Origin: Bordetella sp. H567 | GTDB lineage: Bacteria; Pseudomonadota; Gammaproteobacteria; Burkholderiales; Burkholderiaceae_B | NCBI RefSeq assembly: GCF_001704295.1 | Contig: NZ_CP012334.1 | Location: forward strand, 1,128,084-1,192,083 | Length of the DNA stretch: 64,000 bases | Reading direction: 5' to 3' | Part shown: piece by piece, positions 22,766 to 48,504 of the stretch | How the letters are laid out: each line of letters opens with the position of its first letter | Numbering within the stretch: position 1 is the first letter of the stretch | Translations under genes and position numbers: made by a program | Notes under the pieces: model-generated | Database searches by the model: none | The model's input: the letters and a program-made list of their open reading frames with translations, nothing else | Told to the model about the DNA's origin: nothing

Positions 22766-22873
22766 TCTGGGATGATGGAGCCGTCATGGCGATCATGCGG
22801 GCCGTCGGATGACAGGGAAAACCCTGGGCGAGCAGGGATGCACGCCACAAAACACCACACAAGGGAAACAGCG

Positions 22874-27908: not shown

Positions 27909-28385
27909 ATGGCGAAGTACCAATTGAACGTGAATGGAAAGGACATAAGCGTAGACGTGGACAGCGATACGCCGCTGCTCTATGTGCTGCGCGACGACCT
28001 GGGCCTGCACGGGCCGAAGTTCGGCTGCGGCCTGGGTCAGTGCGGCGCCTGTACGGTGCACATGGATGGCGCGGCGGTGCGGTCATGCATCACGCCGGTG
28101 TCGTCGGTGAACCAGGCGAAGATCGTCACGCTGGAAGGCCTGGGCACCAGCGAGCACCCCCATCCCGTTCAGGAAGCGTTCATCCACGAGCAGGCGGCAC
28201 AGTGCGGCTACTGCATCAACGGCATGGTGATGCAAGCCGCGGCATTCCTGGACAAGACGCCGAACCCCAGCGAAAGCCAGATACGCGAGGCGCTGGATGC
28301 CAACCTGTGCCGCTGCGGAACGCATACGCGCATCATCAAGGCCGTGCAGCGCGCGGCGTCCCCCTCCACCGCCAAGGGAGCCTGA
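27909..28385 (+). CDS. (2Fe-2S) subunit of molybdenum aldehyde dehydrogenase (IorA-like)
   Basis: The 158-residue protein has a plant-type ferredoxin domain, CGLGQCGACTVHMDG, and the second [2Fe-2S] helical domain with CGYCINGMVM and LCRCGTHTRI. This is the small electron-transfer subunit of the xanthine oxidase family, of the kind paired with IorB-like large subunits that lack a FAD subunit. The large subunit gene begins 2 nt after its stop codon. Confidence 0.93.
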   Translation: MAKYQLNVNGKDISVDVDSDTPLLYVLRDDLGLHGPKFGCGLGQCGACTVHMDGAAVRSCITPVSSVNQAKIVTLEGLGTSEHPHPVQEAFIHEQAAQCGYCINGMVMQAAAFLDKTPNPSESQIREALDANLCRCGTHTRIIKAVQRAASPSTAKGA

Positions 28386-28387
28386 TC

Positions 28388-30697
28388 ATGCAGCGTCGCG
28401 AATTTCTCAAGGCGGGCGGCGGGCTCGTCGTGGCTTTTACCCTGCCCACGCTGCCGCTCGCGGCCCTCGCGGAGGACGCTCCGCCCACCGGCAAGGACAT
28501 GCGTCCGGACGAGGTCGATACCTGGCTGGTCGTCGGGAACGACGGCAAGGTCACCGTCTACAGCGGCAAGGTGGACCTGGGCACGGGCGCCCGCACCGCG
28601 CTGGCCCAATTGGTCGCCGAGGAACTGGACGTCGATTTTGGCGCGGTGCGCCTGATCATGGGCGATACCGGCCTGACGGTGGACCAGGGGCAGACCGCCG
28701 GCAGCCAGACGATATCCAATGGCGGCGCCAAGCTGCGCCAGGCGGCCGCCAGCGCGCGCCAGGCGCTGCTCGCCGAGGCGGCGCAGCGCTTGTCGGTGGA
28801 GCAGACACGGCTGACGGTGGCCAAGGGCGTGGTGACCGCCGGCGAAGCAGGACCGACCATCACCTATGCGGCGCTGGTGAGCGACAAGCCCTTGAACGTG
28901 AAACTGGATCCCAAGGTCAAGCTGAAGGACCCGGGCGCCTACACGATCATCGGGAAATCGATCCAACGCGTCGATATTCCAGGGAAGGTGACTGGCGAGT
29001 TCACCTATATGCATGATTTCAAGCTGCCGGGCATGCTGCACGCCCGCGTGGTGCGCCCGCCGTCGATCGGCGCGACGCTGGTGGACGTGGACGAGACGTC
29101 GGTGCGGGACATCAATGGCTTTGTTTCGGTGGTGCGCAAGGACAACTTCGTGGCCGTCCTGGGCAAGACGGAGTGGTCCGCGATCAAGGCCGCGCGTGCG
29201 CTGAAGACCAACTGGAACGAGCGCGACCAGTTTCCCGACCAGGCTCAACTGTTCGAGTATTGGCGTGGCTTGCCGCGCGGCAAGGACGATCCCGTCGTGC
29301 AGTCCGGCGATGCGGACGGCGCGCTTGCGTCCGCGGCCAAGCACGTGAAGGCGACCTATGATTTTCCGGTGCACACCCATGGGTCGATCGGGCCGTCGTG
29401 CGCGGTGGCGGATTTTCGCGACGGCCACTGCACGATCTGGTCGCCGTCTCAATCCACGCATTCGCTGCAAGGCGAGATCGCCCGCACGCTGGATATCGAC
29501 AAGGCGGCGGTACGCCTGGTCTATCTGGACGGGTCGGGCTGCTACGGACGCAATGGACACGAGGACTGCTCCGCGGATGCCGCGCTGATATCGCAATTGG
29601 CCAAGGCGCCGGTGCGGGTCCAATGGATGCGCGCCGACGAACACGGCTGGGATCCCAAGAGCCCGCCGACGCTCGTGGACTTGCAGGCGGGGCTGGACGA
29701 CACCGGCGCCCTGATGGCCTGGAAATCGGAGTTCTTCATCGCGCAGGCACGCGGCACGATGGATGAATTCCCGCTGCTGGCGGCGGTCCTGTCGGGTAAG
29801 CCCAGGCCGACGTACCTGACGGGCAATATCTCCAAGAACTCCGATGTCATGTACGAGTTCCCGCACGTGAAGACCGAAGTGCATCGCATGGCCGACAAGG
29901 CCTTCCGCACCGCGCATCTGCGCACGCCGGGACGCATGCAGAACACCTTCGCCAACGAGGCGTTTTTCGACGAGGTGGCGGCGGCGGCAAACGCGGACCC
30001 GCTGCAGTGGCGTCTCAAATATCTGAAGGACCCGCGTTCGCGCGCGGTGCTGGAAGATGTGGCGAAGATGTCTGGATGGCAGTCGCGGCCGTCGCCCGCC
30101 GGGCAGGGCGCCGAGGCCATGAAAGGTGGCGATGCGAAGGGCGGCGACGTCGCCAAGGCCGGCGATACGGCCGGTGCGCACGCCGTGAAGACGGGCGATG
30201 CCGCGCAAGGGGGCGACGTCTTGAAAGGCCGCGGCGTGGCCTTCGTGCGCTATGACAACGAGCGTACCTATGTGGCGGTGGTCGTGCAGGTGGAGGTGGA
30301 CAAGCGCAACGGCGGCATCCGCGTCACCGACGTGTGGTGCAGCCACGATTGCGGCCAGGTGGTGAATCCCGATGGGGTGCGCAACCAGGTCGAGGGAGGC
30401 ATCGTGCAGACCATCAGCCGTACGCTGATGGAGCAGATCACCTTCGATCGCCAGAAGGTGACCAGCCTGGATTGGAGCAGCTATCCCATCCTGCGTTTCA
30501 CGCAGGTGCCGGCCATTCACGTCCATCTGATCGACCGTCCGGAGAAGCCGGCATGGGGCGCGGGCGAGATGGCGCCCACCGTGATTCCCGCCGCGATCTC
30601 CAACGCCGTGTTCGATGCCACCGGAGTGCGGCTGCGCTCGGTCCCGTTCCTGCCCGATAAGGTGTTGGCCGCGCTGAAGGCGCCGGCGGCGGCGTGA
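28388..30697 (+). CDS. Molybdopterin-binding aldehyde dehydrogenase large subunit (IorB-like)
   Basis: From ATG 28388 the protein is 769 residues, with a Tat leader (RREFLKAGGG) showing export after cofactor insertion. The molybdenum cofactor domains carry GQTAGSQTISNGG, GSIGPSCAVADF and the catalytic Glu (E727) in WGAGEMAPTVIP. The family oxidises aldehydes or N-heterocycles, passing electrons through the FeS subunit, often to a membrane cytochrome c that is absent here. Residues ~570-612 form an unusual Gly/Asp/Lys-rich insert with repeated GGD. Its position upstream of the furoate operon suggests furfural or HMF as a substrate, which is inference. Confidence 0.9.
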   Translation: MQRREFLKAGGGLVVAFTLPTLPLAALAEDAPPTGKDMRPDEVDTWLVVGNDGKVTVYSGKVDLGTGARTALAQLVAEELDVDFGAVRLIMGDTGLTVDQGQTAGSQTISNGGAKLRQAAASARQALLAEAAQRLSVEQTRLTVAKGVVTAGEAGPTITYAALVSDKPLNVKLDPKVKLKDPGAYTIIGKSIQRVDIPGKVTGEFTYMHDFKLPGMLHARVVRPPSIGATLVDVDETSVRDINGFVSVVRKDNFVAVLGKTEWSAIKAARALKTNWNERDQFPDQAQLFEYWRGLPRGKDDPVVQSGDADGALASAAKHVKATYDFPVHTHGSIGPSCAVADFRDGHCTIWSPSQSTHSLQGEIARTLDIDKAAVRLVYLDGSGCYGRNGHEDCSADAALISQLAKAPVRVQWMRADEHGWDPKSPPTLVDLQAGLDDTGALMAWKSEFFIAQARGTMDEFPLLAAVLSGKPRPTYLTGNISKNSDVMYEFPHVKTEVHRMADKAFRTAHLRTPGRMQNTFANEAFFDEVAAAANADPLQWRLKYLKDPRSRAVLEDVAKMSGWQSRPSPAGQGAEAMKGGDAKGGDVAKAGDTAGAHAVKTGDAAQGGDVLKGRGVAFVRYDNERTYVAVVVQVEVDKRNGGIRVTDVWCSHDCGQVVNPDGVRNQVEGGIVQTISRTLMEQITFDRQKVTSLDWSSYPILRFTQVPAIHVHLIDRPEKPAWGAGEMAPTVIPAAISNAVFDATGVRLRSVPFLPDKVLAALKAPAAA

Positions 30698-30732
30698 CGA
30701 TCGCCTGGGCGTTACGGAACGTCGGTACGCAG

Positions 30733-30758
30733 GGCCCTCCGTTAGGAGGGCCTTTTTT
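30733..30758 (+). terminator. Rho-independent terminator
   Basis: The stem GGCCCTCC/GGAGGGCC has 8 perfect pairs and a GTTA loop, followed by T6. It lies 36 nt after the IorB-like stop codon and separates that operon from the hmf operon. Confidence 0.93.
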
Positions 30759-31098
30759 ATGTCGGCTTGGGCAGGCACGTGTCGACGGGGATACAGTTGC
30801 GGGGATATCACGAAGACTTATGCACGGGCATGGCCAGTTTTGCTGCGCTACCGCTGGGGATCGGCCCCCGCCGACCCGTTACCGCCAAAGCCCTTGCGAG
30901 AGGGATACGTCGGGCTGATAAACCTGGTCTCGCTACGCCGGTACACCGGTGAGTCCACATCAGGCGTGACGATTCCATCATTTTTAGTGATTCATTCGAT
31001 CATTAAAGATTAATTGACCTGATATATCCCCCCTCCCTAGACTTTCCTCCCACGACCCACCGGCAAACGGCAGGGCGCGAGAACGAAGGAATGGGAGC
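30759..31098. other. hmf operon upstream region
   Basis: No gene is seen in these 340 bp. The last 130 bp turn markedly AT-rich (around 30965-31025) and hold the likely operon promoter. Confidence 0.4.
31014..31043 (+). promoter_or_regulatory. Putative promoter of the hmf operon
   Basis: TTGACC (31014-31019), an 18-bp spacer and TAGACT (31038-31043) give a fair sigma-70 match about 55 nt before the first gene. The AT-rich DNA just upstream would be a natural activator site. Confidence 0.4.
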
Positions 31099-34000
31099 GT
31101 GGCATTGGACGCCAGGGCGGAAACGGACAACACCCGCACGATGGCCGAGGCCGCGGCGCGCGGCCACGTGGGATCGCCGCGCGTCCGCGTCGAGGACCAG
31201 GCCATCCTGAGCGGACGCGGCCAGTACGGCGACGACGCCGCCACCCGGCCGGGAACCTTGCATGCGGCCATCGTGCGCTCGCCGCATGCCCATGCCCGGG
31301 TGGTCCGCGTCGACGCCAGCCGCGCGACGGCGGCGCCCGGCGTGCGTGCCGTGCTGACGCCCCAGGATGTCGCCGCCTGGTCGCGTCCCTTCGTGGTGGG
31401 CGTGAAGCAGCCCATGGAACAGTGGGCGCTGGCGATGGACAAGGTGCGCTATGTCGGCGAACCGGTCGCGGTGGTGATCGCCGAATCGCGCTATGCGGCC
31501 GAGGACGGCGCGGACCTGGTGGACATCGGGTACGAGCCGCTGGCCGCCGTGGTCTCCATCGAGGACGCGATTGCCGCCGCCGCGCCGGTGCTGCACGAGA
31601 AGGTCGGCAGCAATATCGTGAGCGACCGGACGTTTCGCTATGGCGATCCGGAATCCGCATTCGCCAAGGCCGAGCACCGCATCGGGCTGACCGTCCACTA
31701 CCCGCGCAACTCCTGCACGCCCATCGAATGCGCGGTCGTCATCGCGGAATACCTGTCCGCGCAGGATGGCTACGAGGTGAGTTCCAACTTCATGGGACCG
31801 TTCTCGCTGCATACCGTCATGGCGCTGGCGCTGAAGGTACCGGGCAACCGCTTGCGTCATCGCACCTTTGCCGATTCGGGCGGCAGTTTCGGCGTGAAGC
31901 AGGCGGTGTTTCCCTACGCCGTCCTGATGTGCATGGCCGCGCGCAAGGCGGGCGCGCCCGTGAAGTGGGTGGAGGACCGGCTGGAGCACCTGGCCGGCGC
32001 GACGTCGGCCACCGGCAGGCTATGCCGCATCGAAGCGGCGGTGGCCGCGGATGGCCGCATCCAGGCGCTGTCGTATGACCAGTACGACGATTGCGGCGGC
32101 TATCTTCGCGCGCCCGAACCGGCCACCTTCTATCGCATGCATGGCTGCCTGACGGGGGCGTACGACATTCCGAACCTGGCGGTGCACAACCGCGTGGTGC
32201 TGACCAACAAGACCCCAGCTGGCCTGGTGCGCGGCTTCGGCGGCCCGCAGGTGTATTTCGCGCTGGAGCGGCTGATGCAGCAGATTGCGCGCGAACTGCA
32301 GCTGGACCCTCTGGCGCTGTACCGGCGCAACTTCATCGGCCGGGATGCCTTTCCCTATCGCGCGGCGGCGGGTGCGCTGATCGATTCCGGCGACTATCAA
32401 GGCGCGCTGGAACTCGCGTGGCGCGGCGGTGGCCTGGAAGAGCTTCACGCGCGGCGCGAGCAAGTGCGCGCGCGCGGTGGCCTGTATGGCATCGGCTATG
32501 CCGCCATCGTCGAGCCGTCGATTTCCAACATGGGCTATATCACGACGGTCATGCCGCGCGAGGCGCGCGACAAGGCCGGGCCCAAGAACGGCGGCATCGC
32601 GGCCGCGACCGTTTCCGTGGATCCGCTGGGCGGGGTCAGCGTCGTGGTGGCGTCCGCGCCCGCGGGGCAGGGGCATCGCACCGTCTGCGCGCAGGTCGTC
32701 GCCGACGTGCTGGGCCTGGATCCCGATGCCATCGTGGTCAGCATCGATTTCGATACGCGCAAGGATGCGTGGTCGGTGGCGGCGGGCAACTACTCCAGCC
32801 GTTTCGCGGGCGCCGTGGCGGGCACCGTGCATCTGGCCGCCTGCCGCCTGCGCGACAAGCTGGCCGCCATCGCGGCCGCGCAGATGGACTGCACGGCGGC
32901 CGATATCGTGTTTCGTGACGGCACGATCGGGCCGGGCCATGCGCCGCAAGCCGCGGTGCCCTTCACCCGCCTGGCCGCGAATCCGCATTGGGCGCCTGGC
33001 CTGCTGCCCAAGGGCATCGAGCCGGGGCTGCGCGAGACCGTGTTTTGGTCGCCCGAATCCCTGACGCCACCGGATGGACAGGACCGCATCAATACGTCGG
33101 CGGCCTATGGCTTCGCCTTCGACGTCTGCGCGGTGGAAGTCGACCGCGACACGGGCCGCGTGCGCATCGACCGCTATGTGACCACCCACGATGCCGGCCG
33201 CATCCTGAACCCGGCGCTGGCCGACGGCCAGATCCGCGGCGCCTTCGCGCAGGGGCTTGGCGCGGCCCTGATGGAAGAGTTCCGCTATGGCGCGGACGGC
33301 AGCTTCCTGTCCGGCACCTTCGCCGACTATCTGGTGCCCACGACCTGTGAGGTGCCCGAGCCGGTCATCCTGCACATGGAAACGCCCAGCCCCTTCACGC
33401 CCTTGGGTGCCAAGGGGCTGGGGGAGGGCAACAACATGAGCACACCCGTATGCATCGCCAACGCGGTTGCCGACGCGCTGGGGGTGGACGATGTGAGCCT
33501 GCCCTTGACGCCGGCGCGCGTGATGGCCTTGACCGGCGTGCAGGACCCGCCGCCGTCCAGCGGCCATGTGCCGGCCCGCCAGGGGCGGGAAGCGGGCGAG
33601 CGCGCCGGCCGTTCCCTGTCCGCGCAAGGCGAAGTGCGCTTGCCCGCGACGCCGGAGAAGGTCTTTGCCGTGCTGCTGGATCCGCAGGCCCTGGCCAAGG
33701 TCATCCCCGGCTGCTATGCCTTGACGCCGATCGGGACGAACCGCTATCGCGCCGATGTCACCGTGGGTGTAGGCATGATCAAGGCACGGTATGCGGCGGA
33801 GATTTCGCTGTCCGACCTGGATCCGCCGCGCGGCTTGCGGCTGGCCGGCACGGGTATTTCCAGCGTGGGTACCGCGCAGGGCAGCGGCCTCGTGACGTTG
33901 CATGCGGACGGCACGGGCACCCGGCTGACGTACGACTACGACGCCCAGGTCTCCGGCAAGGTCGCCGCGGTGGGAAGCCGGATGCTCGAAGGCGCCGCGC

Positions 34001-34107
34001 GCGTCGTACTGCGGCAGCTGTTCGAACAACTGGGCCGGCAGGCGGGCGGCGCCCGGCGGCCTTCATGGTGGCGGCGGCTGCTGGGCCTCGGGGAGTCGCG
34101 GCAATGA
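31099..34107 (+). CDS. hmfA: 2-furoyl-CoA dehydrogenase large subunit fused to CoxG-like domain
   Basis: This is a 1002-residue protein. Residues ~20-805 are a CoxL/XdhB-type molybdenum subunit with GSPRVRVEDQAILSGRGQY at the start, VRGFGGPQVYFALERLM, and the catalytic Glu776 in AKGLGEGNN. A linker follows, and then residues ~837-985 match CoxG/SRPBCC (GEVRLPATPEKVFAVLLDP, VIPGCYALTPIG). In the Hmf pathway this enzyme hydroxylates 2-furoyl-CoA at C5. The assignment rests on the complete gene set around it. The start is uncertain: GTG 31099 has GGGAG too close, TTG 31105 is better spaced, and ATG 31141 is possible. Confidence 0.82.
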   Translation: MALDARAETDNTRTMAEAAARGHVGSPRVRVEDQAILSGRGQYGDDAATRPGTLHAAIVRSPHAHARVVRVDASRATAAPGVRAVLTPQDVAAWSRPFVVGVKQPMEQWALAMDKVRYVGEPVAVVIAESRYAAEDGADLVDIGYEPLAAVVSIEDAIAAAAPVLHEKVGSNIVSDRTFRYGDPESAFAKAEHRIGLTVHYPRNSCTPIECAVVIAEYLSAQDGYEVSSNFMGPFSLHTVMALALKVPGNRLRHRTFADSGGSFGVKQAVFPYAVLMCMAARKAGAPVKWVEDRLEHLAGATSATGRLCRIEAAVAADGRIQALSYDQYDDCGGYLRAPEPATFYRMHGCLTGAYDIPNLAVHNRVVLTNKTPAGLVRGFGGPQVYFALERLMQQIARELQLDPLALYRRNFIGRDAFPYRAAAGALIDSGDYQGALELAWRGGGLEELHARREQVRARGGLYGIGYAAIVEPSISNMGYITTVMPREARDKAGPKNGGIAAATVSVDPLGGVSVVVASAPAGQGHRTVCAQVVADVLGLDPDAIVVSIDFDTRKDAWSVAAGNYSSRFAGAVAGTVHLAACRLRDKLAAIAAAQMDCTAADIVFRDGTIGPGHAPQAAVPFTRLAANPHWAPGLLPKGIEPGLRETVFWSPESLTPPDGQDRINTSAAYGFAFDVCAVEVDRDTGRVRIDRYVTTHDAGRILNPALADGQIRGAFAQGLGAALMEEFRYGADGSFLSGTFADYLVPTTCEVPEPVILHMETPSPFTPLGAKGLGEGNNMSTPVCIANAVADALGVDDVSLPLTPARVMALTGVQDPPPSSGHVPARQGREAGERAGRSLSAQGEVRLPATPEKVFAVLLDPQALAKVIPGCYALTPIGTNRYRADVTVGVGMIKARYAAEISLSDLDPPRGLRLAGTGISSVGTAQGSGLVTLHADGTGTRLTYDYDAQVSGKVAAVGSRMLEGAARVVLRQLFEQLGRQAGGARRPSWWRRLLGLGESRQ

Positions 34108-34922
34108 AGCCACAGGCCTTCGACTATATCCGCGCCGAATCGGCGCAGGAGGCCCTCGACGCCCTGGCCGGGCTGGGCAGCGACGGCCGCATCCTGGCCG
34201 GCGGGCAGTCGCTGATGGCGGTGCTGAACATGCGGCTGGCGCAGCCGGCGGCCCTGATCGACATTTCCCGCGCGGCCGACCTGGACTATGTGCGCGAACA
34301 GGACGGCTGCCTGGCGGTGGGCGCGGCGGCCACGCAGGCCAGCGTGGAGTGGCGCGCGGGCCTGGCCGACGCCGTGCCGCTGCTGGCGCAGGCCTTTCCC
34401 TTCATCTCGCATTTCCAGATCCGCAATCGCGGCACGGTATGCGGATCGGTGGCGCACGCCGATCCCAGTGCCGAACTGCCGCTGGTGCTGTCCGCGCTGG
34501 ACGGCCAGGTGGTGCTGCGCGAGAAGCGCCGCCGCCGCGTTTTGCCGGCCGCCGAGTTCTTCCAAGGCATGTTGATGACGGCGCGCGGCGCCGACGAGCT
34601 GGTGGAGGAAGTGCGGTTTCCCCTGGCCCGGTCCGGCACGCGCTACGCCTTCGACGAGTTCTCGGCGCGCCACGGCGATTTCGCGCTGGTGGCCGTGGCC
34701 GCGATGGCCGATGCGCGCGAGCTCACGCTGGCGGTCGGCGGCGTGGCGGATCGTCCGACGGTGCGGCGCTGGCCCCACATGCCGGACAAGGACCTGGAAA
34801 CGGCGGTCAACGATTTCGCGTGGGACCTGGGCGCGCAGGACGATCCCCACGTCAGCGCGGCTTTCCGCCGCCAATTGGTGCGGCGGCTGGGCGTCGGCGT
34901 CCTGCGTAAGGTGATGGCATGA
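34104..34922 (+). CDS. hmfB: 2-furoyl-CoA dehydrogenase FAD-binding subunit
   Basis: The 272-residue CoxM-type protein starts at ATG 34104, overlapping the previous stop by ATGA. It has the FAD signatures ILAGGQSLMAVLNMRL and IRNRGTVCGSVAHADPSAEL. It would pass electrons from the iron-sulfur subunit to FAD and on to the acceptor. It lacks the extra iron-sulfur loop expected for 4-hydroxybenzoyl-CoA reductase, which helps exclude that enzyme. Confidence 0.82.
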   Translation: MKPQAFDYIRAESAQEALDALAGLGSDGRILAGGQSLMAVLNMRLAQPAALIDISRAADLDYVREQDGCLAVGAAATQASVEWRAGLADAVPLLAQAFPFISHFQIRNRGTVCGSVAHADPSAELPLVLSALDGQVVLREKRRRRVLPAAEFFQGMLMTARGADELVEEVRFPLARSGTRYAFDEFSARHGDFALVAVAAMADARELTLAVGGVADRPTVRRWPHMPDKDLETAVNDFAWDLGAQDDPHVSAAFRRQLVRRLGVGVLRKVMA

Positions 34923-35443
34923 AGAAACTCGAACGCGACCGCGAGCACGCGATCCACCTGATGTTAAACGGCACGGCGCGCCGGGGCGCCTGCGAGCCCC
35001 GGATGCTGCTGTCCGATTTCCTGCGGCATGAACTGGGCGCGACCGGCACGCACGTCGGATGCGAGCACGGCGTGTGCGGCGCCTGCACCGTGTTGATCGA
35101 CGGTGTCGCCTCGCGCGCCTGCCTGACGCTGGCGGTGCAGGTGCAAGGCCGCCAGGTCGATACGGTGGAAGGGCTGGGCGATGCCGACGGCATGCTCAAC
35201 GACCTGCAGCAGGCCTTTCGCCGCAACCACGCCCTGCAGTGCGGCTTCTGCACGGCGGGCATCCTGATGTCCTGCCAGGACTATCTGCGCCGTCATCCCG
35301 ATCCGGACGAGCAGGATATCCGCGACATGTTGTCCGGCCATCTGTGCCGCTGCACCGGCTACACCAACATCGTCAACGCGGTCATGGAGACCGCCGCCGC
35401 GCGGCGCGCGGCGGTAGCGCTGGAACCGCCCCAGGGGGAATAA
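34919..35443 (+). CDS. hmfC: 2-furoyl-CoA dehydrogenase (2Fe-2S) subunit
   Basis: The 174-residue CoxS-type protein has CEHGVCGACTVLIDG for the first cluster, and CGFCTAGILM plus HLCRCTGYTNI for the second. It overlaps the FAD subunit stop by ATGA and carries no signal peptide, so this trimeric enzyme is cytosolic, as expected for a CoA-thioester substrate. Confidence 0.85.
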   Translation: MKKLERDREHAIHLMLNGTARRGACEPRMLLSDFLRHELGATGTHVGCEHGVCGACTVLIDGVASRACLTLAVQVQGRQVDTVEGLGDADGMLNDLQQAFRRNHALQCGFCTAGILMSCQDYLRRHPDPDEQDIRDMLSGHLCRCTGYTNIVNAVMETAAARRAAVALEPPQGE

Positions 35444-35446
35444 CAC

Positions 35447-37090
35447 ATGCTGGACCTCGGCAGAACCTTTCTGCAAAGCGTGGAGCGCAGCCCCGACGCG
35501 CCGGCCATCGCCGATGGTGCGCGGCAGCTCAGCTATGGGCAATGGCACGCCGACATCGCGGCCTTGGGCGCGGCCCTGGACGCCCTGGGCCTGCGGCGTG
35601 GCGACCGGCTGCTGGCCGTCCTGCAGAACCGCTTCGAGATGGCCACCCTGCACTGGGCTTGCCAGTTCAAGGGCATCGTCATCACGCCGCTAAACTGGCG
35701 CGCCAAGCCCGACGAGGTCGAATACTGTGCGCGCGACGCGCAGGCGCGCGCGGTGTTCTACGAGCCGGTCAGCGCCGATGCGGTGCTGGGCAGCGCGGCG
35801 GCCGCCGGCCTGCCCAAGATCGCGGCCGGCGGCGCTGCGGGCGGCCTGGCCACCTTCGACGCGCTGCTGGACGCGCATGCGGGCGCGGCGCTGGCCCCGC
35901 TGGCGCAGGCCGACGATTTTTCCTTGATGCTGTACACGTCCGGTACGACGGGCAAGCCCAAGGGCGTGCCGCGGCGCCATCGCCACGAGCGCGCCGCGGC
36001 GCTGGCGCATGTCGCGCAGAACCTGTACCGGCGCGGCGAGCGCACGCTGGGCGTGATGCCGCTGTACCACACCATGGGCGTGCGCTCGCTGCTGTCCATG
36101 GCGCTGGTCGACGGGCTGTTCGCCTGCCTGCCGAAGTTCGACCCCGCGGTGGCACTGGCCGCGATCGCCGAACACCGGCTGACCTGCCTGTATCTGGTGC
36201 CCACCCTGTATCACGACATGCTGGCGCACCGCGAACGGCATGGCGGCGATCTGTCGTCGGTGACGAAGCTGGGTTTTGCCGGCGCGCCCATGCATGACGC
36301 GCTGCTGCAGCGCCTGACGGCTGCCTTCCAGCCGGAGTTGTTCGTCAACCACTATGGCTCGTCGGAGGTCTACACCTGCGCCACCGAGCCCGACGCGGCA
36401 CGCAAGCCGGGCAGCGCGGGCAGGGCGGGCATCAATACGCGCATCCGCGTCGTGCGGCTGGGCGCGACGTCGCCCGACGCCATCGCGCCGCCGGGCGAGG
36501 AAGGCGAAATCATTGCCGACCTGGCGGGCGACGAGGCCTTCGAAGGCTATTGGAACCGGCCGGATGCCGATGCCAAGTCCATGCTGGCGGGCTGGTATCG
36601 CACCGGCGACACCGGCTACATCGACCCGGACGGCGATCTCTTCGTCACCGGCCGCGTCGACGACATGATCATCAGCGGCGGCGAAAACATATCCCCGGTG
36701 GACATCGAGTCCGTGCTGTCCCTGCATCCCGCGGTGGATGAAGTGGCCGTCGCCGGGCTGCCGGACGAGCGCTGGGGGCAGCGCGTGGTCGCCTTCGTGA
36801 AGCGGCAGGCCCCGGTGGACGGCGAGGCGCTGGACGCCCATTGCCGCCAGTCCGACCTGCTGAACTTCAAGCGGCCGCGCGAATACGTCTTCGTGCGGGC
36901 GATTCCGAAGTCGCCGGTGGGCAAGGTGCTGCGGCGCAAGCTGGTCGCCGGCGAGTACGACGCGGAGTTCGCGGCGGCGGTCGCGCCAGCTGGGACATCC
37001 GGGCCATCCGGACCGGCCGGGGCATCCGCATCGTCGGGGGCATCCGAGGCGACAAGGGCGCCCGCCGGTTCCGGCGCCAAGCCGGTCTGA
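35447..37090 (+). CDS. hmfD: AMP-binding acyl-CoA synthetase, probable 2-furoate-CoA ligase
   Basis: The 547-residue adenylate-forming enzyme has the P-loop YTSGTTGKPKGVPRRH, the A5-type NHYGSSEVYTCA, the hinge GWYRTGDTGYIDPDGDLFVT and the C-terminal catalytic Lys in PKSPVGKVLRRKL. It lies 3 nt after the FeS subunit. In this setting it should activate 2-furoate to 2-furoyl-CoA; sequence alone only shows an aromatic/fatty acid:CoA ligase. A low-complexity Ala/Gly/Ser/Pro tail of about 40 residues follows the enzyme domain. Confidence 0.82.
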   Translation: MLDLGRTFLQSVERSPDAPAIADGARQLSYGQWHADIAALGAALDALGLRRGDRLLAVLQNRFEMATLHWACQFKGIVITPLNWRAKPDEVEYCARDAQARAVFYEPVSADAVLGSAAAAGLPKIAAGGAAGGLATFDALLDAHAGAALAPLAQADDFSLMLYTSGTTGKPKGVPRRHRHERAAALAHVAQNLYRRGERTLGVMPLYHTMGVRSLLSMALVDGLFACLPKFDPAVALAAIAEHRLTCLYLVPTLYHDMLAHRERHGGDLSSVTKLGFAGAPMHDALLQRLTAAFQPELFVNHYGSSEVYTCATEPDAARKPGSAGRAGINTRIRVVRLGATSPDAIAPPGEEGEIIADLAGDEAFEGYWNRPDADAKSMLAGWYRTGDTGYIDPDGDLFVTGRVDDMIISGGENISPVDIESVLSLHPAVDEVAVAGLPDERWGQRVVAFVKRQAPVDGEALDAHCRQSDLLNFKRPREYVFVRAIPKSPVGKVLRRKLVAGEYDAEFAAAVAPAGTSGPSGPAGASASSGASEATRAPAGSGAKPV

Positions 37091-37134
37091 ACTGACGCTA
37101 TTACCGAACCTTTTTTTGTCCGGAGCTGCTTTCC

Positions 37135-38583
37135 ATGACAACCCCAACCCAGATGCCGCGCTACACCGACCTGCGCACGTGGCTGGATCACCTGGCCGCC
37201 ACCGACCGCGTGGCCGTCATCCGCGATGGCGCCGCGCTGGAGCACCAGGTCGCCGCGATCGCCAAAAGGCTGGACGGCCGCCAGGCCGCCTATTTCACGC
37301 GGCCGGGCGGCCATGGCATGCCGGTGGTCTCCGGATTCATGTCGCGCCGCGCATGGATCGCCGAAGCCATGGGCGTGCCGGAATCGGGCCTGCTGGCTGC
37401 GTACCGCCGGGCCGCGGAGGCGCCCTTGTCCTGCGAGGAAGTGCCGGCGGGACAGGCGGCGTGTCAGCAGGTGGTGCATCGCGATCCGGACGTGCGCGCC
37501 TTGCTGCCCGTGCCCACGCACAGCGAACACGACAACGGGCCCTACATCACGGCCGGCATGGTCATCGCGCGCAACCCCGTCACCGGCGTGCAGAACGTGT
37601 CGATCAACCGCATCCAGGTGCATGCGGCCAACCGCATGGCCGTCCTGCTGCTGCCGCGCCACTTGTATTCCTTCTACAAAGAGGCGGAAAAGCGCGGACA
37701 GGACTTGCCGGTGGCCATCGTCATCGGCGCGGACCCGCTGACCTTGCTGGCCTCGCAGGCCATCATGCCGATCGACCATGACGAACTGGAAATCGCCGGC
37801 GCGCTGCATGGCAGGCCTTTGCCGGTCGCACGGTGCCTGACCAGCGACATCCACGTCCCAGCGTCGGCGGAAATCGTCATCGAAGGGCGCCTGCTGCACG
37901 ACGTGCGCGAGCCCGAAGGGCCCTTCGGCGAATTTCCCCGCTACTACAGCGCGCGGGAGCATCGCGAGGTGATCGCCGTCGACGTGGTCACGCATCGCCG
38001 CGATCCCATCTACCACACCATCGTACCCGCCGAAATGGAGCACCTGCTGCTGGGCTCCATCCCGCGCGAGGCGACCCTGCTGGCGCACCTGCAGCGCAGT
38101 TTCCCGGGCGTGACGGACGTACATCTGTCGATCGGCGGGGTGGGGCGCTATCACCTGTTCGTGCGCCTGCGCAAAACGCATGAAGGCCAGCCCAAGAACG
38201 TCATCCTGTGCGCCTTCGGCGCGCATTACGACATCAAGCAGGTCGTGGTGGTGGACGAAGACGTGGAAGTGCACGATCCGCGGCAGGTGGAGTGGGCCAT
38301 CGCCACGCGCTTCCAGGCGGACCGCGACCTGATGGTGATCAGCGGCGCCCAGGGCTCGGTGCTGGATCCGTCGACCACGGTGAGCGCCGGCGCGGGCGCG
38401 GAGACGGTGCCCGCGCATCTGCAGGGCATCAGCGCCAAGATGGGCCTGGACGCGACGCGCCCGGTGTCCTATCACGAACACGTGTTCACCAAGGTGCGGA
38501 TCCCGGGCGAGGAAGATGTCGACCTGTCGTCCTGGATCGATGCGGGCGCCCGCATGGACTTCGGCGCGGTGCCACGGCAATGA
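37135..38583 (+). CDS. hmfF: UbiD-family decarboxylase, probable 2,5-furandicarboxylate decarboxylase
   Basis: The 482-residue protein is a UbiD-type prenylated-FMN decarboxylase: NVSINRIQVHAANRMAV in the prFMN/metal site and the acidic active-site block REPEGPFGEFPRYYSAREH. HmfF of furan-degrading bacteria converts 2,5-furandicarboxylate to 2-furoate, feeding the CoA ligase encoded upstream. A dedicated UbiX homologue overlaps its stop codon, supplying prFMN. The substrate assignment comes from operon content. Confidence 0.83.
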   Translation: MTTPTQMPRYTDLRTWLDHLAATDRVAVIRDGAALEHQVAAIAKRLDGRQAAYFTRPGGHGMPVVSGFMSRRAWIAEAMGVPESGLLAAYRRAAEAPLSCEEVPAGQAACQQVVHRDPDVRALLPVPTHSEHDNGPYITAGMVIARNPVTGVQNVSINRIQVHAANRMAVLLLPRHLYSFYKEAEKRGQDLPVAIVIGADPLTLLASQAIMPIDHDELEIAGALHGRPLPVARCLTSDIHVPASAEIVIEGRLLHDVREPEGPFGEFPRYYSAREHREVIAVDVVTHRRDPIYHTIVPAEMEHLLLGSIPREATLLAHLQRSFPGVTDVHLSIGGVGRYHLFVRLRKTHEGQPKNVILCAFGAHYDIKQVVVVDEDVEVHDPRQVEWAIATRFQADRDLMVISGAQGSVLDPSTTVSAGAGAETVPAHLQGISAKMGLDATRPVSYHEHVFTKVRIPGEEDVDLSSWIDAGARMDFGAVPRQ

Positions 38584-39218
38584 ACACGCCGCGTCCCAAA
38601 CGGCTGGTCGTCGCGATCACGGGCGCCAGCGGTGCCATTTACGGCGTGCGCATCCTGCAGTACCTGCGCCGCTGTCCGGAATGGGAGAGCCACCTGGTGC
38701 TGTCCCACTCCGGCGCCTTGACCGCCGCGCAGGAGCTTGCGCTCAAGCGCAGCGATATCGAGGACCTGGCCGATGTCGTGCACAACGTCAAGGACATCGG
38801 CGCCTCGGTGGCCAGCGGCTCGTTTCCGACCGAAGGCACGGTCGTCGCGCCGTGCTCGATGAAGACGCTGGCCGCCATCGCGCTGGGCCTGGCGGACAAC
38901 CTGGTCAGTCGCGCCGCCGACGTCGCGTTCAAAGAGCGGCGGCGCGTGGTGCTGCTGGCGCGCGAAACGCCGCTGAACCTGGCGCACCTGCGCAACATGA
39001 CCAGCGTCACGGAAATGGGCGGCATCGTCTTCCCACCCGTGCCGGCGTTCTACAACCAGCCCGCCACCCTAGACGATGTGGTCAACCATACCGTGGGGCG
39101 CGTGCTGGACTTGTTCGGCATCGCCCATGACGACCTGCTGGCGCGCTGGGAGGGGCTGCGCAAGCCCGCCGCCGCGCCGGCATCCGAATTCACCTCTTCC
39201 GAAGGAGTACATCCGTGA
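38580..39218 (+). CDS. hmfG: UbiX-like flavin prenyltransferase
   Basis: The 212-residue protein starts at ATG 38580, overlapping the decarboxylase stop. It has VAITGASGAIYGVRILQYL, the PCSMKTLAAIALGLADNLVS flavin/dimethylallyl-phosphate segment and RRRVVLLARETPLNLAHLRN. UbiX enzymes attach dimethylallyl phosphate to FMN to make the cofactor of UbiD enzymes. Pairing with the UbiD gene is the classic hmfFG arrangement. The C-terminal 20 residues are a non-conserved extension. Confidence 0.87.
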   Translation: MNTPRPKRLVVAITGASGAIYGVRILQYLRRCPEWESHLVLSHSGALTAAQELALKRSDIEDLADVVHNVKDIGASVASGSFPTEGTVVAPCSMKTLAAIALGLADNLVSRAADVAFKERRRVVLLARETPLNLAHLRNMTSVTEMGGIVFPPVPAFYNQPATLDDVVNHTVGRVLDLFGIAHDDLLARWEGLRKPAAAPASEFTSSEGVHP

Positions 39219-40021
39219 CGACTCTCAAGCATCCCGCCCATGCCCTGCCCGCCGAACTGGACGGGTTCCGCGTCGACGTGGACGTCGAACGCCAGCGCGC
39301 CGATATCGTGCTGGCCCGTCCGCCGTTCAATATCGTATCCATGCCGCAACGCGACCAGCTGCGCTTGGTGTTCGAGGCGCTGGACGAGGACGAGCGCGTG
39401 CGCGTGATCGTGCTGCGCGCCGAAGGAGAGCATTTCTCCAGCGGCGGCGACATCAAGGGCTTCTTGCAGGCCTCGCCGGAACGCGTCTCCAAGCTGGCGT
39501 GGAACATCGCGGCGCCGGCACGCTGCGCCAAGCCCGTCATCGCCGCGGCGCGCGGCTACTGCTTCGGCGTAGGCTTCGAAATCTCCCTGGCCTGCGACTT
39601 CCGCCTCGTCAGCGAAACCGCGCAATACGCGCTGCCGGAGCAGAAGCTGGGCCAGATTCCCGGGTCCGGCGGCTCTGCCCGGTTGCAGAAAATGGTAGGC
39701 ATCACGCGAACCAAGGACATCGTCATGCGTTCGCGGCGGATCAGCGCTCAACAAGCCTACGACTGGGGCGTCGCCACGGAAATCGTGCCTGACGGGGAAC
39801 TGGAAGCGGCCACCGATCGCCTGGTCGCCGAGCTGCTGGCTTTCTCGCCGCTGGCGCAGCGTACCGCCAAGAAGCTGCTGAACGACACGGAGGACGCGTC
39901 CCTGTCGGCCTCGATCGAGCTGGAAGGGCACTGCTACAGCCGCCTGCGCAGCAGCGACGATTTCCGTGAAGGGGTGGAAGCCTTCCATGGCAAGCGCGCG
40001 CCCGTGTTCCGCGGCAGCTAG
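39215..40021 (+). CDS. hmfE: Enoyl-CoA hydratase family protein, probable 2-oxoglutaroyl-CoA hydrolase
   Basis: The 268-residue crotonase protein starts at GTG 39215 inside the UbiX stop, with GAAGGAG upstream. The oxyanion-hole strand HFSSGGDIKGF and both glutamate positions (GVGFEISLACDF and LPEQKLGQIPGSGG) are present. In the Hmf pathway an enzyme of this family opens or hydrolyses the 5-hydroxyfuroyl-CoA tautomer to 2-oxoglutarate and CoA. It is the last gene of the operon. Confidence 0.8.
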   Translation: MTTLKHPAHALPAELDGFRVDVDVERQRADIVLARPPFNIVSMPQRDQLRLVFEALDEDERVRVIVLRAEGEHFSSGGDIKGFLQASPERVSKLAWNIAAPARCAKPVIAAARGYCFGVGFEISLACDFRLVSETAQYALPEQKLGQIPGSGGSARLQKMVGITRTKDIVMRSRRISAQQAYDWGVATEIVPDGELEAATDRLVAELLAFSPLAQRTAKKLLNDTEDASLSASIELEGHCYSRLRSSDDFREGVEAFHGKRAPVFRGS

Positions 40022-40788: not shown

Positions 40789-41595
40789 ATGCCGGAAGGC
40801 AAAACAATAGCGGCGGGAAAGACCGCCACTGGGGTCAAGGCCAAGCGCATGTCGGCGAAACTGCGTGCCGAAGGCAACGCGGCCAATAGTCTTTCGGCCG
40901 TGGCCGCCACGCTGCGCCGTCTGCTGTCGCTCGATTCCCAGCATGATTCGCTGGTGGTTTCCATGGCGTACGAGTTGGGGCTCGACATCATCGAAGGCCG
41001 ACTGCAGGCCGGCGATGACCTGAATTCCGTCGATCTCGCCCAGCGGTTTTCCACCAGCCGTACGCCCGTGCGAGAGGCGCTTGCGTTGCTGGAGCGGCAG
41101 GGCATGGTGGAAATCCCGCCGCGTCGCCGTCCGCGCGTGCGCATGGCCAGCATGGAAGAGATCCGCAATATCTACGAAGTGCGCGCCGCCATGCATGCGC
41201 TGGTTTGCGAGCTGGTCGCGCAGCGGGCCACCGAGGACGATATCGCCCTGCTGCGGGACCGTTTCGAGGCCATGCGCACGGCCGCCGAAGAGGGCAACGT
41301 CCATGATTACTTCCTGGCCAATATGCAATTTCACGACATCACCCTGCAGGCGTGCCGTAATCCGCTGCTCCAGCGGACGCTGGATTCCCTGGGCCTGACG
41401 ACGTTCAACCTGCGCTACCAGACACTGTCGCAGCCGGGCCGCATCCCGCAGTCGCTTGAAGATCATTCCCTGTTGATGCGCGCGTTCGAGGATCGCAATC
41501 CCGTATTGGCGGCGTCCGTCATCCGCAACAATATCCAGGCCGCGCTGAAGGTCCTGCAGGAAAAGATCGAGTTGCACGACGAGACCCGGTCCTAA
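40789..41595 (+). CDS. GntR family transcriptional regulator, FCD type
   Basis: The 268-residue protein begins at ATG 40789, supported by AGGAG five nt upstream. A basic N-terminal extension of about 60 residues precedes the winged helix (VDLAQRFSTSRTPVREALAL), followed by an FCD effector domain with MQFHDITLQACRNPLLQ. It is the first gene before a long catabolic array in the same direction. TGTCGACA palindromes ahead of the hydratase gene (41672) and CoA transferase gene (43831, 43892) are candidate operators for it. Confidence 0.9.
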   Translation: MPEGKTIAAGKTATGVKAKRMSAKLRAEGNAANSLSAVAATLRRLLSLDSQHDSLVVSMAYELGLDIIEGRLQAGDDLNSVDLAQRFSTSRTPVREALALLERQGMVEIPPRRRPRVRMASMEEIRNIYEVRAAMHALVCELVAQRATEDDIALLRDRFEAMRTAAEEGNVHDYFLANMQFHDITLQACRNPLLQRTLDSLGLTTFNLRYQTLSQPGRIPQSLEDHSLLMRAFEDRNPVLAASVIRNNIQAALKVLQEKIELHDETRS

Positions 41596-41671
41596 TCTCC
41601 GCGGGCGCCTGGGCGCCGGCTCGGCCGCGCTTGCGCGGCTTCCCCATACGGTCTACCGCACATTCGCTAAT

Positions 41672-41679
41672 GTCGACAG
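41672..41679. promoter_or_regulatory. TGTCGACA palindrome, site 1
   Basis: Perfect 8-bp palindrome followed by GTTTAGGT, in the 220-bp region before the hydratase gene at 41816. The flank resembles that of site 3. Confidence 0.45.
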
Positions 41680-41815
41680 TTTAGGTCGGCATTTGTCTGA
41701 ATGGCCATTATCTGTGGTAAAAGTTCAGGCAACTGTCCACAGAATGTGCCAGCAAGGCCAGCGCCACCACGGCGGGCGGGCACCTTCGTCAACCCGAAAC
41801 CTAGCCGGACGCGCG

Positions 41816-42604
41816 ATGAAAAAATACGAGACGCTGTTGCTGGAGCAGGACGAACATGTACTGACGGTCGTGCTGAACCGGCCCGAGGCCGGCAACGCGC
41901 TCAATACGCTGATGTTGACCGAAGTGGTGGATCTGCTGGCCACGCTGTACGTGGATCCGCAAGGCGTGCGCTGCGTCGTGCTCACCGGCGCCGGCGACCG
42001 TATCTTCTGCGCGGGCGGTGACCTGAAGGAACGCAAGGGCATGACGGACGAGGCATGGCGCCGCCAGCATGCCCTGACCGAACAGATGATGCGGCATTTC
42101 CAGGAGCTGCCCATCCCCGTCATCGCCGCGGTCAACGGCGCGGCCTACGGCGGCGGCTGCGAGCTGGCGGTGGCCGTGGATTTCGCCTATGCCGCCGATA
42201 CCGCCCGCTTCGCGCTGACCGAGGTAACGCTGGGCATCATCCCCGGCGCGGGAGGCACGCAGAACCTGCCCAGGGCCTGCGGTGTGCGCCGCGCCAAGGA
42301 AATCATCCTGACCGGCCTGCCTTTTTCAGCCCAGGATGCCTTGGAATGGGGCGTGGTGAACAAGGTATGTTCGCCGGCCGGGTTGCTGCCGGAGGCGCAG
42401 GCGACCGCGCGCCGCATCGCCGGCAATGCGCCGGTCGCGGTGCAGCAGGCCAGGAAGTCCATCACCATGGCCACGCAATCGGACCTTGCCACCGGATACC
42501 GGTTCGAACTGGAAGCCTATTACCGCACCATCCCGACCCAGGATCGCCTGGAAGGCGTGCTGGCGTTCAACGAGAAAAGAAAGCCCGTGTTCCAGGGACG
42601 GTAA
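41816..42604 (+). CDS. Enoyl-CoA hydratase
   Basis: The 262-residue protein from ATG 41816 is a typical crotonase: RIFCAGGDLKERKG oxyanion strand, AYGGGCELAVAVDFAYA with the first catalytic Glu, and LTEVTLGIIPGAGGTQNLPR with the second. Both residues for hydration of enoyl-CoA are present. It heads the catabolic array downstream of the FCD regulator and has a TGTCGACA element upstream. Its natural substrate is unknown; methylglutaconyl-CoA-type hydratases are among the similar enzymes. Confidence 0.92.
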   Translation: MKKYETLLLEQDEHVLTVVLNRPEAGNALNTLMLTEVVDLLATLYVDPQGVRCVVLTGAGDRIFCAGGDLKERKGMTDEAWRRQHALTEQMMRHFQELPIPVIAAVNGAAYGGGCELAVAVDFAYAADTARFALTEVTLGIIPGAGGTQNLPRACGVRRAKEIILTGLPFSAQDALEWGVVNKVCSPAGLLPEAQATARRIAGNAPVAVQQARKSITMATQSDLATGYRFELEAYYRTIPTQDRLEGVLAFNEKRKPVFQGR

Positions 42605-42677
42605 AGGCGTCATCCCACAGCGGGCAGGGGCCGCGTACCGATACGCCGCCATTACGGGAGCCGTCACGAGGGACATC

Positions 42678-43754
42678 ATGGCAGAGCGGGCCGCAAGCGA
42701 AGACAGCGAAGTCGAAAGCCGGCAAACGCCGCGCCGATCCCATCTGCCGGTACGGCCGCAATGGCTGGCGCGCCGCGCGGAGCCCGTGCTGGAGCCGGGC
42801 CTTCCCATCATCGATCCCCATCATCATTTGTGGGACCATCCTGGCAACCGTTATCTGCTGCAGGACTTCCTGGCCGATGCCGGCAGCGGCCACGACATTC
42901 GCGCCACCGTGTTCATCGAATGCGGCTCCATGTACCGGCCGGATGGCGATCCCTTGCTTCGTCCCATAGGCGAAACGGAATTCGCCAATGGCGCGGCCGC
43001 CATGGCCGCCAGCGGTTTATATGGAAGGTGTCGCGTGGCCGCGGGCCTGGTGGCCTATGCGGATCTGCTGGCGGGCGACCGCGCCGGCGCGGTGCTCGAG
43101 GCGCAGATCGCCGCCGGCAACGGCCGTGTCCGCGGCATCAGGAATATTTCGGCATGGCACAAGGACCCGGCGGCTCGCGGTTCCCTCGCGGACCCGCCGC
43201 CGGGCATGCTGCTGGACGCCTCGTTCCAGCGAGGCTTTTCGCATTTGCGGCGGCTGGGCCTGGCCTTCGACGCCTGGATGTATCACACGCAGTTATCCGA
43301 GCTCTGTGTGCTGGCCGCGCGGTTTCCGGATACGACCATCGTGCTGAACCACGTGGGCGGCCCGATCGGTATCGGTCCCTACGCGAACCAGCGCGACCAG
43401 GTCTTCCAAGCCTGGCGTGCGTCGATAGGCGCGTTGGCCGCATATCCGAACGTACACCTGAAGGTGGGTGGATTCGGCATGCGCCTGTTCGGCTTCGGCT
43501 TCCAGGATCACGAGCTGCCGCCCTTGTCCGAGGCGCTGGCGCCCGCCTGGCGCCCTTATGTCGACACCGCGGTCCAGGCTTTCGGCACGGACCGGTGCAT
43601 GTTCGAAAGCAATTTCCCCGTGGACAAGGCCGTGTGTTCCTACGCTTCCGTCTGGAACACCTTCAAGCGGCTGACCGCGGGCTGGTCGGCCAGCGAACGC
43701 GCCGACGTCTTCAGCGGCACGGCCTGCCGCGTCTACCGGCTGGCGCTGGACTGA
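42678..43754 (+). CDS. Amidohydrolase family 2 (PDC lactonase/TIM-barrel hydrolase-like)
   Basis: The 358-residue protein has the amidohydrolase-2 start IIDPHHHLWD, NHVGGPIGIGPYA in mid-barrel and FGTDRCMFESNFPVDKA near the end. This group includes 2-pyrone-4,6-dicarboxylate lactonase, L-fucono-lactonase and related lactone hydrolases, and some decarboxylases. The ATG at 42678 adds about 40 charged residues before the barrel; other starts are possible. It follows the hydratase by 73 nt and suggests a lactone or ring-derived intermediate in this pathway. Confidence 0.87.
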   Translation: MAERAASEDSEVESRQTPRRSHLPVRPQWLARRAEPVLEPGLPIIDPHHHLWDHPGNRYLLQDFLADAGSGHDIRATVFIECGSMYRPDGDPLLRPIGETEFANGAAAMAASGLYGRCRVAAGLVAYADLLAGDRAGAVLEAQIAAGNGRVRGIRNISAWHKDPAARGSLADPPPGMLLDASFQRGFSHLRRLGLAFDAWMYHTQLSELCVLAARFPDTTIVLNHVGGPIGIGPYANQRDQVFQAWRASIGALAAYPNVHLKVGGFGMRLFGFGFQDHELPPLSEALAPAWRPYVDTAVQAFGTDRCMFESNFPVDKAVCSYASVWNTFKRLTAGWSASERADVFSGTACRVYRLALD

Positions 43755-43830
43755 TCCCTTGGGCGTGGTGCGACGCCCGCCGGGCGGGCATGGGATCGTC
43801 TTTTCGCCTTCGTCCAAAATATCCCTGAAG

Positions 43831-43838
43831 TGTCGACA
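43831..43838. promoter_or_regulatory. TGTCGACA palindrome, site 2
   Basis: Perfect 8-bp palindrome in the AT-richer 177-bp region between the amidohydrolase and the CoA transferase gene; 61 bp upstream of site 3. Confidence 0.45.
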
Positions 43839-43891
43839 AATTAATTGACATTGGCCGGATTGCTCGTAGAATTTGTCTCATAACCTGAATC

Positions 43892-43899
43892 TGTCGACA
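43892..43899. promoter_or_regulatory. TGTCGACA palindrome, site 3
   Basis: Perfect 8-bp palindrome followed by CTTAGGT, matching the flank of site 1 (GTTTAGGT), and 33 bp before the CoA transferase ATG at 43932. Confidence 0.45.
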
Positions 43900-43931
43900 C
43901 TTAGGTGGAATGACGTGCGGATGGATTCTCC

Positions 43932-45209: not shown

Positions 45210-45241
45210 CGTGTGCGCTTTCTCCTTCGAAAGGAAAGGTC

Positions 45242-45670
45242 ATGACATTCGACACCCCTCTCATTCCCAGCGCGAACCCGCGCTTGTCGGCGGACCACGT
45301 CCGTACGGCGGGCACGGGCATCCGGTTGGTCGGGCAGACGTGCAAGGACTGCGGCAAGTCGCTGTTCCCGCGAACGGGCGTGTGCCCCGCCTGCCAGTCC
45401 GTCAACCTGGCCGACAGTGAGATGCCGGACGAGGGCGTGCTGTACAGCTGGTCGGTGGTGCATGTCGCGCCCAAGCCCTGGACCACACCCTATGTGATCG
45501 GCTACGTGGACCTGCCCAACCAGGTGCGCGTGTTCTCCCATATCGGCGGCGCGCCCGACAGCCTGCGGGTCGATATGCCGGTGCGCCTGGAAGCTGTCGC
45601 CGCCGCCCATGGCGAGACGGCGGGACAGCCGCCTTTCCGTTTCAGTCCCGTCCAGAAGGGAGTCCTCTAA
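45242..45670 (+). CDS. DUF35/OB-fold acyl-CoA-associated zinc-ribbon protein
   Basis: The 142-residue protein has a rubredoxin-like zinc ribbon (CKDCGKSLFPRTGVCPAC) followed by the OB-fold block VLYSWSVVHVAPKPWTTPYV. Such proteins form complexes with non-decarboxylating thiolase-like enzymes and help bind acyl-CoA. The next gene, a thiolase-like protein, starts on the last base of its stop codon (TAATG), the classic arrangement. Confidence 0.9.
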   Translation: MTFDTPLIPSANPRLSADHVRTAGTGIRLVGQTCKDCGKSLFPRTGVCPACQSVNLADSEMPDEGVLYSWSVVHVAPKPWTTPYVIGYVDLPNQVRVFSHIGGAPDSLRVDMPVRLEAVAAAHGETAGQPPFRFSPVQKGVL

Positions 45671-46809: not shown

Positions 46810-46866
46810 GCGCGCCGCACACCGGAGGGAAGCTCCCATGCGTACGCAAACAGACGGGACCCGGCC

Positions 46867-48482: not shown

Positions 48483-48504
48483 CCCGACGGGTGGAGACCT
48501 GACC

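Follow-up and report, generated by a model that had tools for sequence, protein, structure and literature searches.

The 64,000-nucleotide stretch of DNA analysed here (the window) covers positions C1:1128084-1192083, on the + strand, in the genome of Bordetella sp. H567, a single contig of 5.53 Mb; it has 65% G+C and contains, between 31099 and 40021, seven tightly packed + strand open frames that we name hmfA-B-C-D-F-G-E after the genes of furan degradation (table 1). As the initial annotation had stated, the genes lie close together or overlap: four junctions (A/B, B/C, F/G and G/E) have 4-base overlaps, with gaps of 3 bases at C/D and 44 bases at D/F, and these overlaps make transcription of the hmf genes as a single unit likely. 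The product families proposed there, namely a molybdenum/FAD/[2Fe-2S] trimer, an acyl-CoA ligase, a UbiD decarboxylase, a UbiX prenyltransferase and a crotonase, agree with the Pfam domains of all seven proteins, HmfA combining MoCoBD_1/2 with a C-terminal COXG domain. A gene caller based on codon usage also calls all seven genes, its first round having been trained on the same genes and hence not being independent. The row is not a product of chance, because identical genes in identical order recur in other genera. Three features lie beyond what the initial annotation had noted, the C-terminal CoxG domain of HmfA, a distant LysR gene and a promoter element shared between the two places.

Table 1. 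Coordinates of the hmf genes and of the signals preceding them in the window.
Feature	Position	Strand	Description
Terminator-like hairpin with T run	30731..30754	+	3' of 2Fe-2S/Mo gene pair; consensus match only
Predicted LysR-type binding site	30988..31002	+	TGAT-N7-ATCA dyad; conserved layout, binding predicted
Conserved operator-promoter core	31002..31026	+	ATTAAAGATTAATTGACCTGATATA; matches distant lysR-tctC intergenic region
Predicted promoter	31014..31043	+	-35 TTGACC 31014-31019, 18-nt spacer, -10 TAGACT 31038-31043; position conserved in relatives
hmfA	31099..34107	+	1002 aa, GTG start; predicted furoyl-CoA dehydrogenase molybdenum subunit (~24-812), CoxG domain (~839-981), short cationic tail
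hmfB	34104..34922	+	FAD subunit; Pfam FAD_binding_5
hmfC	34919..35443	+	[2Fe-2S] subunit; Pfam Fer2/Fer2_2
hmfD	35447..37090	+	Putative 2-furoyl-CoA synthetase, AMP-binding acyl-CoA ligase; Pfam AMP-binding; substrate from context
hmfF	37135..38583	+	UbiD-type, predicted furandicarboxylate decarboxylase; Pfam UbiD
hmfG	38580..39218	+	UbiX-type flavin prenyltransferase, prFMN cofactor; Pfam Flavoprotein
hmfE	39215..40021	+	Crotonase fold, putative 2-oxoglutaroyl-CoA hydrolase; Pfam ECH_1; substrate from context

In a gene-order survey of 80 named loci, the best among 145 confirmed relatives, the contiguous order A-B-C-D-F-G-E is present in 14 (L037, L038, L041, L043-L046, L048, L050-L052, L056, L061 and L062). 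Two more, L067 and L068, follow the same order with E about 8 kb off, and L040 and L060, limited by their contigs, are compatible with it. The most closely comparable loci, those of Bordetella sp. LUAb4 (L037), Achromobacter sp. HZ34 (L038) and Bordetella genomosp. 4 (L041), have exactly the order ABCD-F-G-E, with proteins 82-83% (A), 76-78% (B), 77-79% (F), 81-83% (G) and 86-87% (E) identical to those of the window. The order F-G-A-B-C-D-E occurs in 38 of the 80 loci. It is exemplified by clusters of Burkholderia, Paraburkholderia and Caballeronia (e.g., L034 and L097), which likewise unite these seven genes in a single row and differ from the window in having FG first and a LysR gene divergent from hmfF. 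Three of the four plasmid records carry FG before ABCDE (two of them with intervening genes), and the fourth has G on the opposite strand. The initial annotation had set the window apart from systems with separate hmfABCDE and hmfFG blocks; the insertion of FG between D and E is real, but it is shared with the 14 loci above, and single rows with FG next to or within ABCDE are common, so that the gene order is not new. Genera with the order of the window belong to Alcaligenaceae, Comamonadaceae and Oxalobacteraceae. In a quick tree of HmfF, from which L118 was left out as a copy of L046, the window groups with the loci of the same order from LUAb4, HZ34, genomosp. 4 and G103 with a support of 97, which is not a bootstrap value; this tree implies several changes of gene order, and a single origin of ABCD-FG-E is not shown by it.

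In L037, L038 and L041, lysR and tctC precede hmfA, and hmfH and hmfT directly follow hmfE; the window instead has a MAPEG gene downstream of hmfE and then a catabolic gene row headed by a GntR gene. Where, then, might the regulator of this operon be encoded? The same genome has, at C1:3943955, a LysR gene whose product is 81% identical to the LysR divergent from hmfA in L037. It is itself divergent from a TctC/Bug gene, the product of which is 70% identical to one in L041, and the pair lies between a mechanosensitive-channel gene and, on its other side, genes for a transglycosylase and aconitase B. The distance between hmfF and this lysR is 2.78 Mb, against 2.1-13.6 kb in the 16 other genomes of the family that have both. 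Among 268 family genomes HmfF is found in 22 and the LysR in 18, both being present in 17, HmfF only in five, the LysR only in one (G189, with a best HmfF match of 56%) and neither in 245 (Fisher p = 1.5e-21, for related genomes that are not independent). The cut-offs, at least 69% identity for HmfF and at least 59% for LysR, were chosen after seeing the lists; below them fall G254 (68%, on a piece at a contig end), G189 and G190 (54-56%) for HmfF, and seven genomes at 41-53% for LysR.

The two distant places are connected by their promoters. The region upstream of hmfA and the lysR-tctC intergenic region have 21 of 21 bases in common, ATTAAAGATTAATTGACCTGA, in an element oriented toward hmfA and tctC, respectively, and at both TAGACT follows TTGACC after 18 bases; the same 21 bases lie between lysR and hmfA in L038. 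Over the whole operator-promoter core of table 1, 21 bases were scored as identical to the distant region, and all 25 are identical on reading the aligned rows. An 18-base core, ATTAATTGACCTGATATA, has two exact copies in the genome, before hmfA and between the distant lysR and tctC, plus two copies with three mismatches; its reversed control has none genome-wide, and shuffles of the window give 0.00 on average. Besides its occurrence before hmfA in the window, the layout with the dyad preceding the core is seen 22 times in hmf loci, one instance being the distant tctC promoter. A stricter layout combining dyad, core and -10 box was searched in 100 sequences (L033-L130, L153 and the window, with one duplicate among them) and was found at 23 places: before hmfA in seven cases, tctC in 13, adh in two and hmfF in one. 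Twenty rounds of mononucleotide shuffles gave none, for a pattern drawn from the same sites. In the three closest loci, the arrangement seen in the window precedes hmfA in L037 and L038 and tctC in L037, L038 and L041, and in L041 also adh; with a looser core, L033 and L104 each yielded one hit, both outside the strict layout. Our scan for promoters and terminators was no richer than shuffles (promoters 1 vs. 1.0, terminators 2 vs. 4.9), and consequently the claim of an hmfA promoter rests on conservation instead.

These data predict a split regulon, in which the regulator gene has become separated from the operon and the predicted site has been retained: the LysR encoded beside the Bug/TctC uptake gene would control the hmf operon through an operator-promoter core identical at both places. 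Regulators encoded within the window, the GntR/FCD protein at 40789 and the LysR at 21008, lie nearer, and either might control the operon, leaving the distant LysR to serve the TctC gene only. We regard this alternative as unlikely, given the similarity of the distant protein to the LysR divergent from hmfA in L037, the exact 21-bp element common to both promoters, and the finding that nowhere in the stretches of L037, L038, L041 and L117 does either regulator of the window come out as best match (at least 90 bits, weaker overlapping matches being suppressed). On this comparison with related hmf loci, control by the nearest regulators was rejected. A LysR gene is named as regulator of the upper-pathway genes in PMC12064950, in passages that show no operator, and nothing was found among open-licence papers in PubMed Central (PMC) on an operator for LysR control of hmf genes, which may exist in print elsewhere. 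For some of the Betaproteobacteria, our results offer a predicted and testable operator and regulator of the hmf genes.

With respect to the substrate, the nearest solved structure of the UbiD protein is PDB 6h6v (404 bits, aligned with window residues 12-468), far ahead of the second-best solved molecule, AnInD 7p9q (196 bits). The structure listing describes 6h6v as polyprenyl-hydroxybenzoate decarboxylase and related, without the name HmfF; we take it to be HmfF of Pelotomaculum thermopropionicum. None of the 99 HmfF proteins of the fetched loci departs from R159, E261, E266, H303 or R311, residues with catalytic or substrate roles. In the alignment, H303 is paired with histidine 296 of 6h6v, whose residue 297 is leucine. 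PMC7976604 calls histidine H297 of HmfF key for furan-type substrates and reports asparagine in the pyrrole enzyme; allowing for a one-residue shift in numbering, H303 would be that histidine. HmfG belongs to the UbiX-family prenyltransferases of NCBIfam, scoring 277.4 bits with one UbiX subfamily model, which has a cut-off of 188, and 230.2 bits with another, which has a cut-off of 108.9. The HmfABC trimer is present, and all 70 uncut HmfA proteins share both RGFGGPQ and the glutamate of a G-L/V-GEG loop, the latter being an active-site residue. An acyl-CoA ligase (HmfD) and a crotonase-family protein (HmfE) complete the row at family level. The best solved matches are CoxL 8uem for HmfA (405 bits), 4-chlorobenzoate-CoA ligase for HmfD and enoyl-CoA hydratases for HmfE; since these are other systems, the substrate of the three proteins rests on context, and the lack of any Hmf- or furoyl-named molecule among the solved matches listed for HmfA and HmfD carries no weight either way. 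In many Betaproteobacteria, the gene for this HmfF has the six other hmf genes beside it.

Taken together, the products support a flow from furandicarboxylate to furoate, furoyl-CoA, 5-hydroxyfuroyl-CoA and 2-oxoglutarate, as the initial annotation had suggested, in steps outlined in PMC6604932 and PMC6678421. HmfG would supply prenylated FMN to HmfF, which would decarboxylate 2,5-furandicarboxylate to 2-furoate; HmfD would convert this to 2-furoyl-CoA; and HmfABC would hydroxylate C5 at its molybdenum site, passing electrons via its 2Fe-2S clusters and FAD, with the quinone pool as the probable acceptor. The hydroxylated product would then tautomerise and its lactone open, whereupon HmfE would free 2-oxoglutarate. 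For lactone opening, PMC6678421 states that a gene has yet to be assigned, and PMC12064950 has a putative gene, hyd, along with psfD for insertion of the molybdenum cofactor. An XdhC-type maturation gene is present elsewhere in our genome, its product being 55% identical to that encoded beside the hmf row of L034.

The same enzyme set from furandicarboxylate to 2-oxoglutarate is described, in PMC6604932 and PMC6678421, for Cupriavidus basilensis HMF14, which has hmfABCDE and hmfFGH; the latter source gives accessions ADE20399-ADE20403 for its Hmf proteins. The window differs in that its hmf genes form a single row in which FG separates D from E, in that hmfH is absent and in that the likely regulator is encoded at a distance. 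The nearest stand-ins for HMF14 were plasmids of C. necator and C. oxalaticus (HmfA 73%).

On this evidence we consider, with a probability of roughly 85%, that the seven genes of this Bordetella-like genome make up an ordinary Hmf operon, predicted to be controlled by LysR from afar, with reactions and regulator binding predicted from sequence; the likely diet of this organism would then gain furandicarboxylate and furoate. Several points weigh against this interpretation. On the regulatory side, kinship inflates the p-value of co-occurrence, five of the 22 genomes with HmfF are without the LysR at the cut-off used, and the strict operator pattern was derived from the very sites it counts. 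Moreover, of the 14 loci with a contiguous ABCD-FG-E row, eight show that pattern, while the rest include some that stop short of their regulator gene; none of 41 FG-ABCDE sequences shows it. On the metabolic side, 6h6v does not bear the name HmfF in the structure listing, HmfD and HmfE belong to broad families, the likeness to HMF14 comes from published descriptions, and no HmfH, HmfT or lldD-tpp partner that might provide furandicarboxylate is adjacent.

The breadth of the HmfD and HmfE families would also suit an operon that degrades another five-membered heteroaromatic acid, such as pyrrole- or thiophene-carboxylates, by the same chemistry, furandicarboxylate not being the natural substrate; moreover, no HmfH or HmfT orthologue that could supply it was found in the genome. 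This seems improbable to us, considering that the UbiD protein is nearest to 6h6v, that H303 lies at or next to the histidine reported as key for furans, where the pyrrole enzyme has asparagine (PMC7976604), and that sister loci carry HmfH in the same row. The description of the operon as complete, given in the initial annotation, stands only for the segment from furandicarboxylate or furoate down: HmfH and HmfT orthologues were not found in this genome, and no gene here could be named for lactone opening. The best genomic match for HmfH is a GMC protein with 43-46% identity over about 300 residues, compared with at least 58% identity to the L037 protein wherever hmfH accompanies hmf genes in the fetched loci; eight HmfT-like matches in the genome have 26-35% identity. 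A match to hmfH lies within the stretch of nine of the 14 contiguous A-B-C-D-F-G-E loci. The gene is present in HMF14 and not universal, a functional cluster without a homologue being reported in PMC12064950.

A pair of genes for an lldD-like FMN-dependent 2-hydroxyacid dehydrogenase and for an enzyme that uses TPP and matches the PRK08199 subfamily with 906 bits recurs beside hmfF, often with an aldehyde dehydrogenase gene and in some loci where hmfH was not found (L041:16067-18988, L117, L119, L044, L046, L051, L052 and L121-L125, the fetched stretches of L121-L125 having no match to hmfABCDE). It could represent a side route to furan aldehydes and acids resembling the mandelate type. As hidden parts of the pathway in our genome, these peripheral genes were rejected: its best tpp match has 54% identity, in a search that did not include lldD, and for the aldehyde dehydrogenase of L041 the genome likewise offers nothing close, the best match having 49%. 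No UbiX match of at least 90 bits was present near hmfF within the fetched stretches of L055, L065, L077, L080, L088 and L120-L125, the HmfF of which may depend on UbiX encoded elsewhere. A gene of the sterol desaturase family also recurs beside hmf clusters (L034:24110-24814, L033, L043, L045, L053, L056 and more), with no match of at least 90 bits in the window.

Alongside the displaced LysR with its retained operator core, the fusion of HmfA with CoxG deserves to be followed up. CO dehydrogenase clusters have CoxG as a separate gene; in the window it is fused to the catalytic subunit, and the same fusion is found in 70 of 70 uncut HmfA proteins (69 distinct), that is, 76 hits minus six cut by the ends of the fetched stretch. 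The domain is Pfam-named in the window protein (PF06240, 84 bits; solved relatives 2pcs with 97.8 bits and 8uds with 35.2 bits) and was read from the alignment in the others. Mean identity to the window HmfA is 74% for both the CoxG and the catalytic part and 27% for the linker. In all 70, the final 20 positions include an aromatic residue and the final 15 carry a net charge of +2 or more. A test for amphipathicity was weak, 42 of 55 distinct tails exceeding their own shuffle mean (mean z 0.75), and the tail of the window HmfA is below its own shuffles. With five further CoxG domains elsewhere in the genome, HmfA is not alone in carrying one. The active-site loop of form I CoxL contains a cysteine motif that binds copper. 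That the trimer is itself a CO dehydrogenase, as its CoxG domain and its best solved match, CoxL, might suggest, is hardly credible and was rejected on NCBIfam scores less than half of the cut-offs (440.8 of 950 and 407.1 of 991.15) and on the RGFGGPQ motif occupying the position of those cysteines in all 70 HmfA proteins, the ligase gene moreover accompanying the trimer in the loci read wherever the stretch extends far enough.

Regarding the function of CoxG, PMC4240915 proposes that it recruits CO dehydrogenase to the membrane, PMC11962113 describes it as the anchor of a glycerol-3-phosphate dehydrogenase, and PMC13240472 calls it menaquinone-binding. A quinone role is counted against by the statement in PMC11962113 that CoxG was not needed for quinone reduction in that system and by a CO oxidiser without coxG (PMC8941161). 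Among open-licence PMC papers, the two found to contain both CoxG and furoyl treat them separately in their passages on them, and a link may exist in print elsewhere. The fusion suggests, from our comparative analysis, membrane-linked oxidation of furoyl-CoA. Combining this with the split regulon yields a tentative scheme, for which we would put the odds somewhat below even: a respiratory furoyl-CoA dehydrogenase, docked on the membrane by CoxG and the cationic tail and donating electrons to quinone, in an operon governed together with the uptake gene by the displaced LysR via the unchanged operator core. If CoxG is indeed a device for docking to membrane or quinone, it would hint at the destination of the electrons of furoyl-CoA dehydrogenase, which matters for strains used in furan bioconversion.

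Elsewhere in the window, genes for a 2Fe-2S and molybdenum-subunit pair lie at 27909-30697, next to which no gene for an FAD subunit was called; the pair's best solved match is the aldehyde dehydrogenase large subunit 8gy3 (212 bits), and it could oxidise an aldehyde. The region 21008-26500 holds the LysR gene (21008-21943) and, divergent from it, a RidA-like gene together with genes for the binding protein, ATPase and two permeases of an SsuABC-type ABC transporter. The region 40789-50387 comprises the GntR/FCD regulator followed by genes for an enoyl-CoA hydratase, an amidohydrolase, two CaiB-type CoA transferases, a ChsH2-like OB protein, a thiolase and two alpha/beta hydrolases, which by these families is predicted to be another, uncharacterised, CoA-dependent catabolic row.

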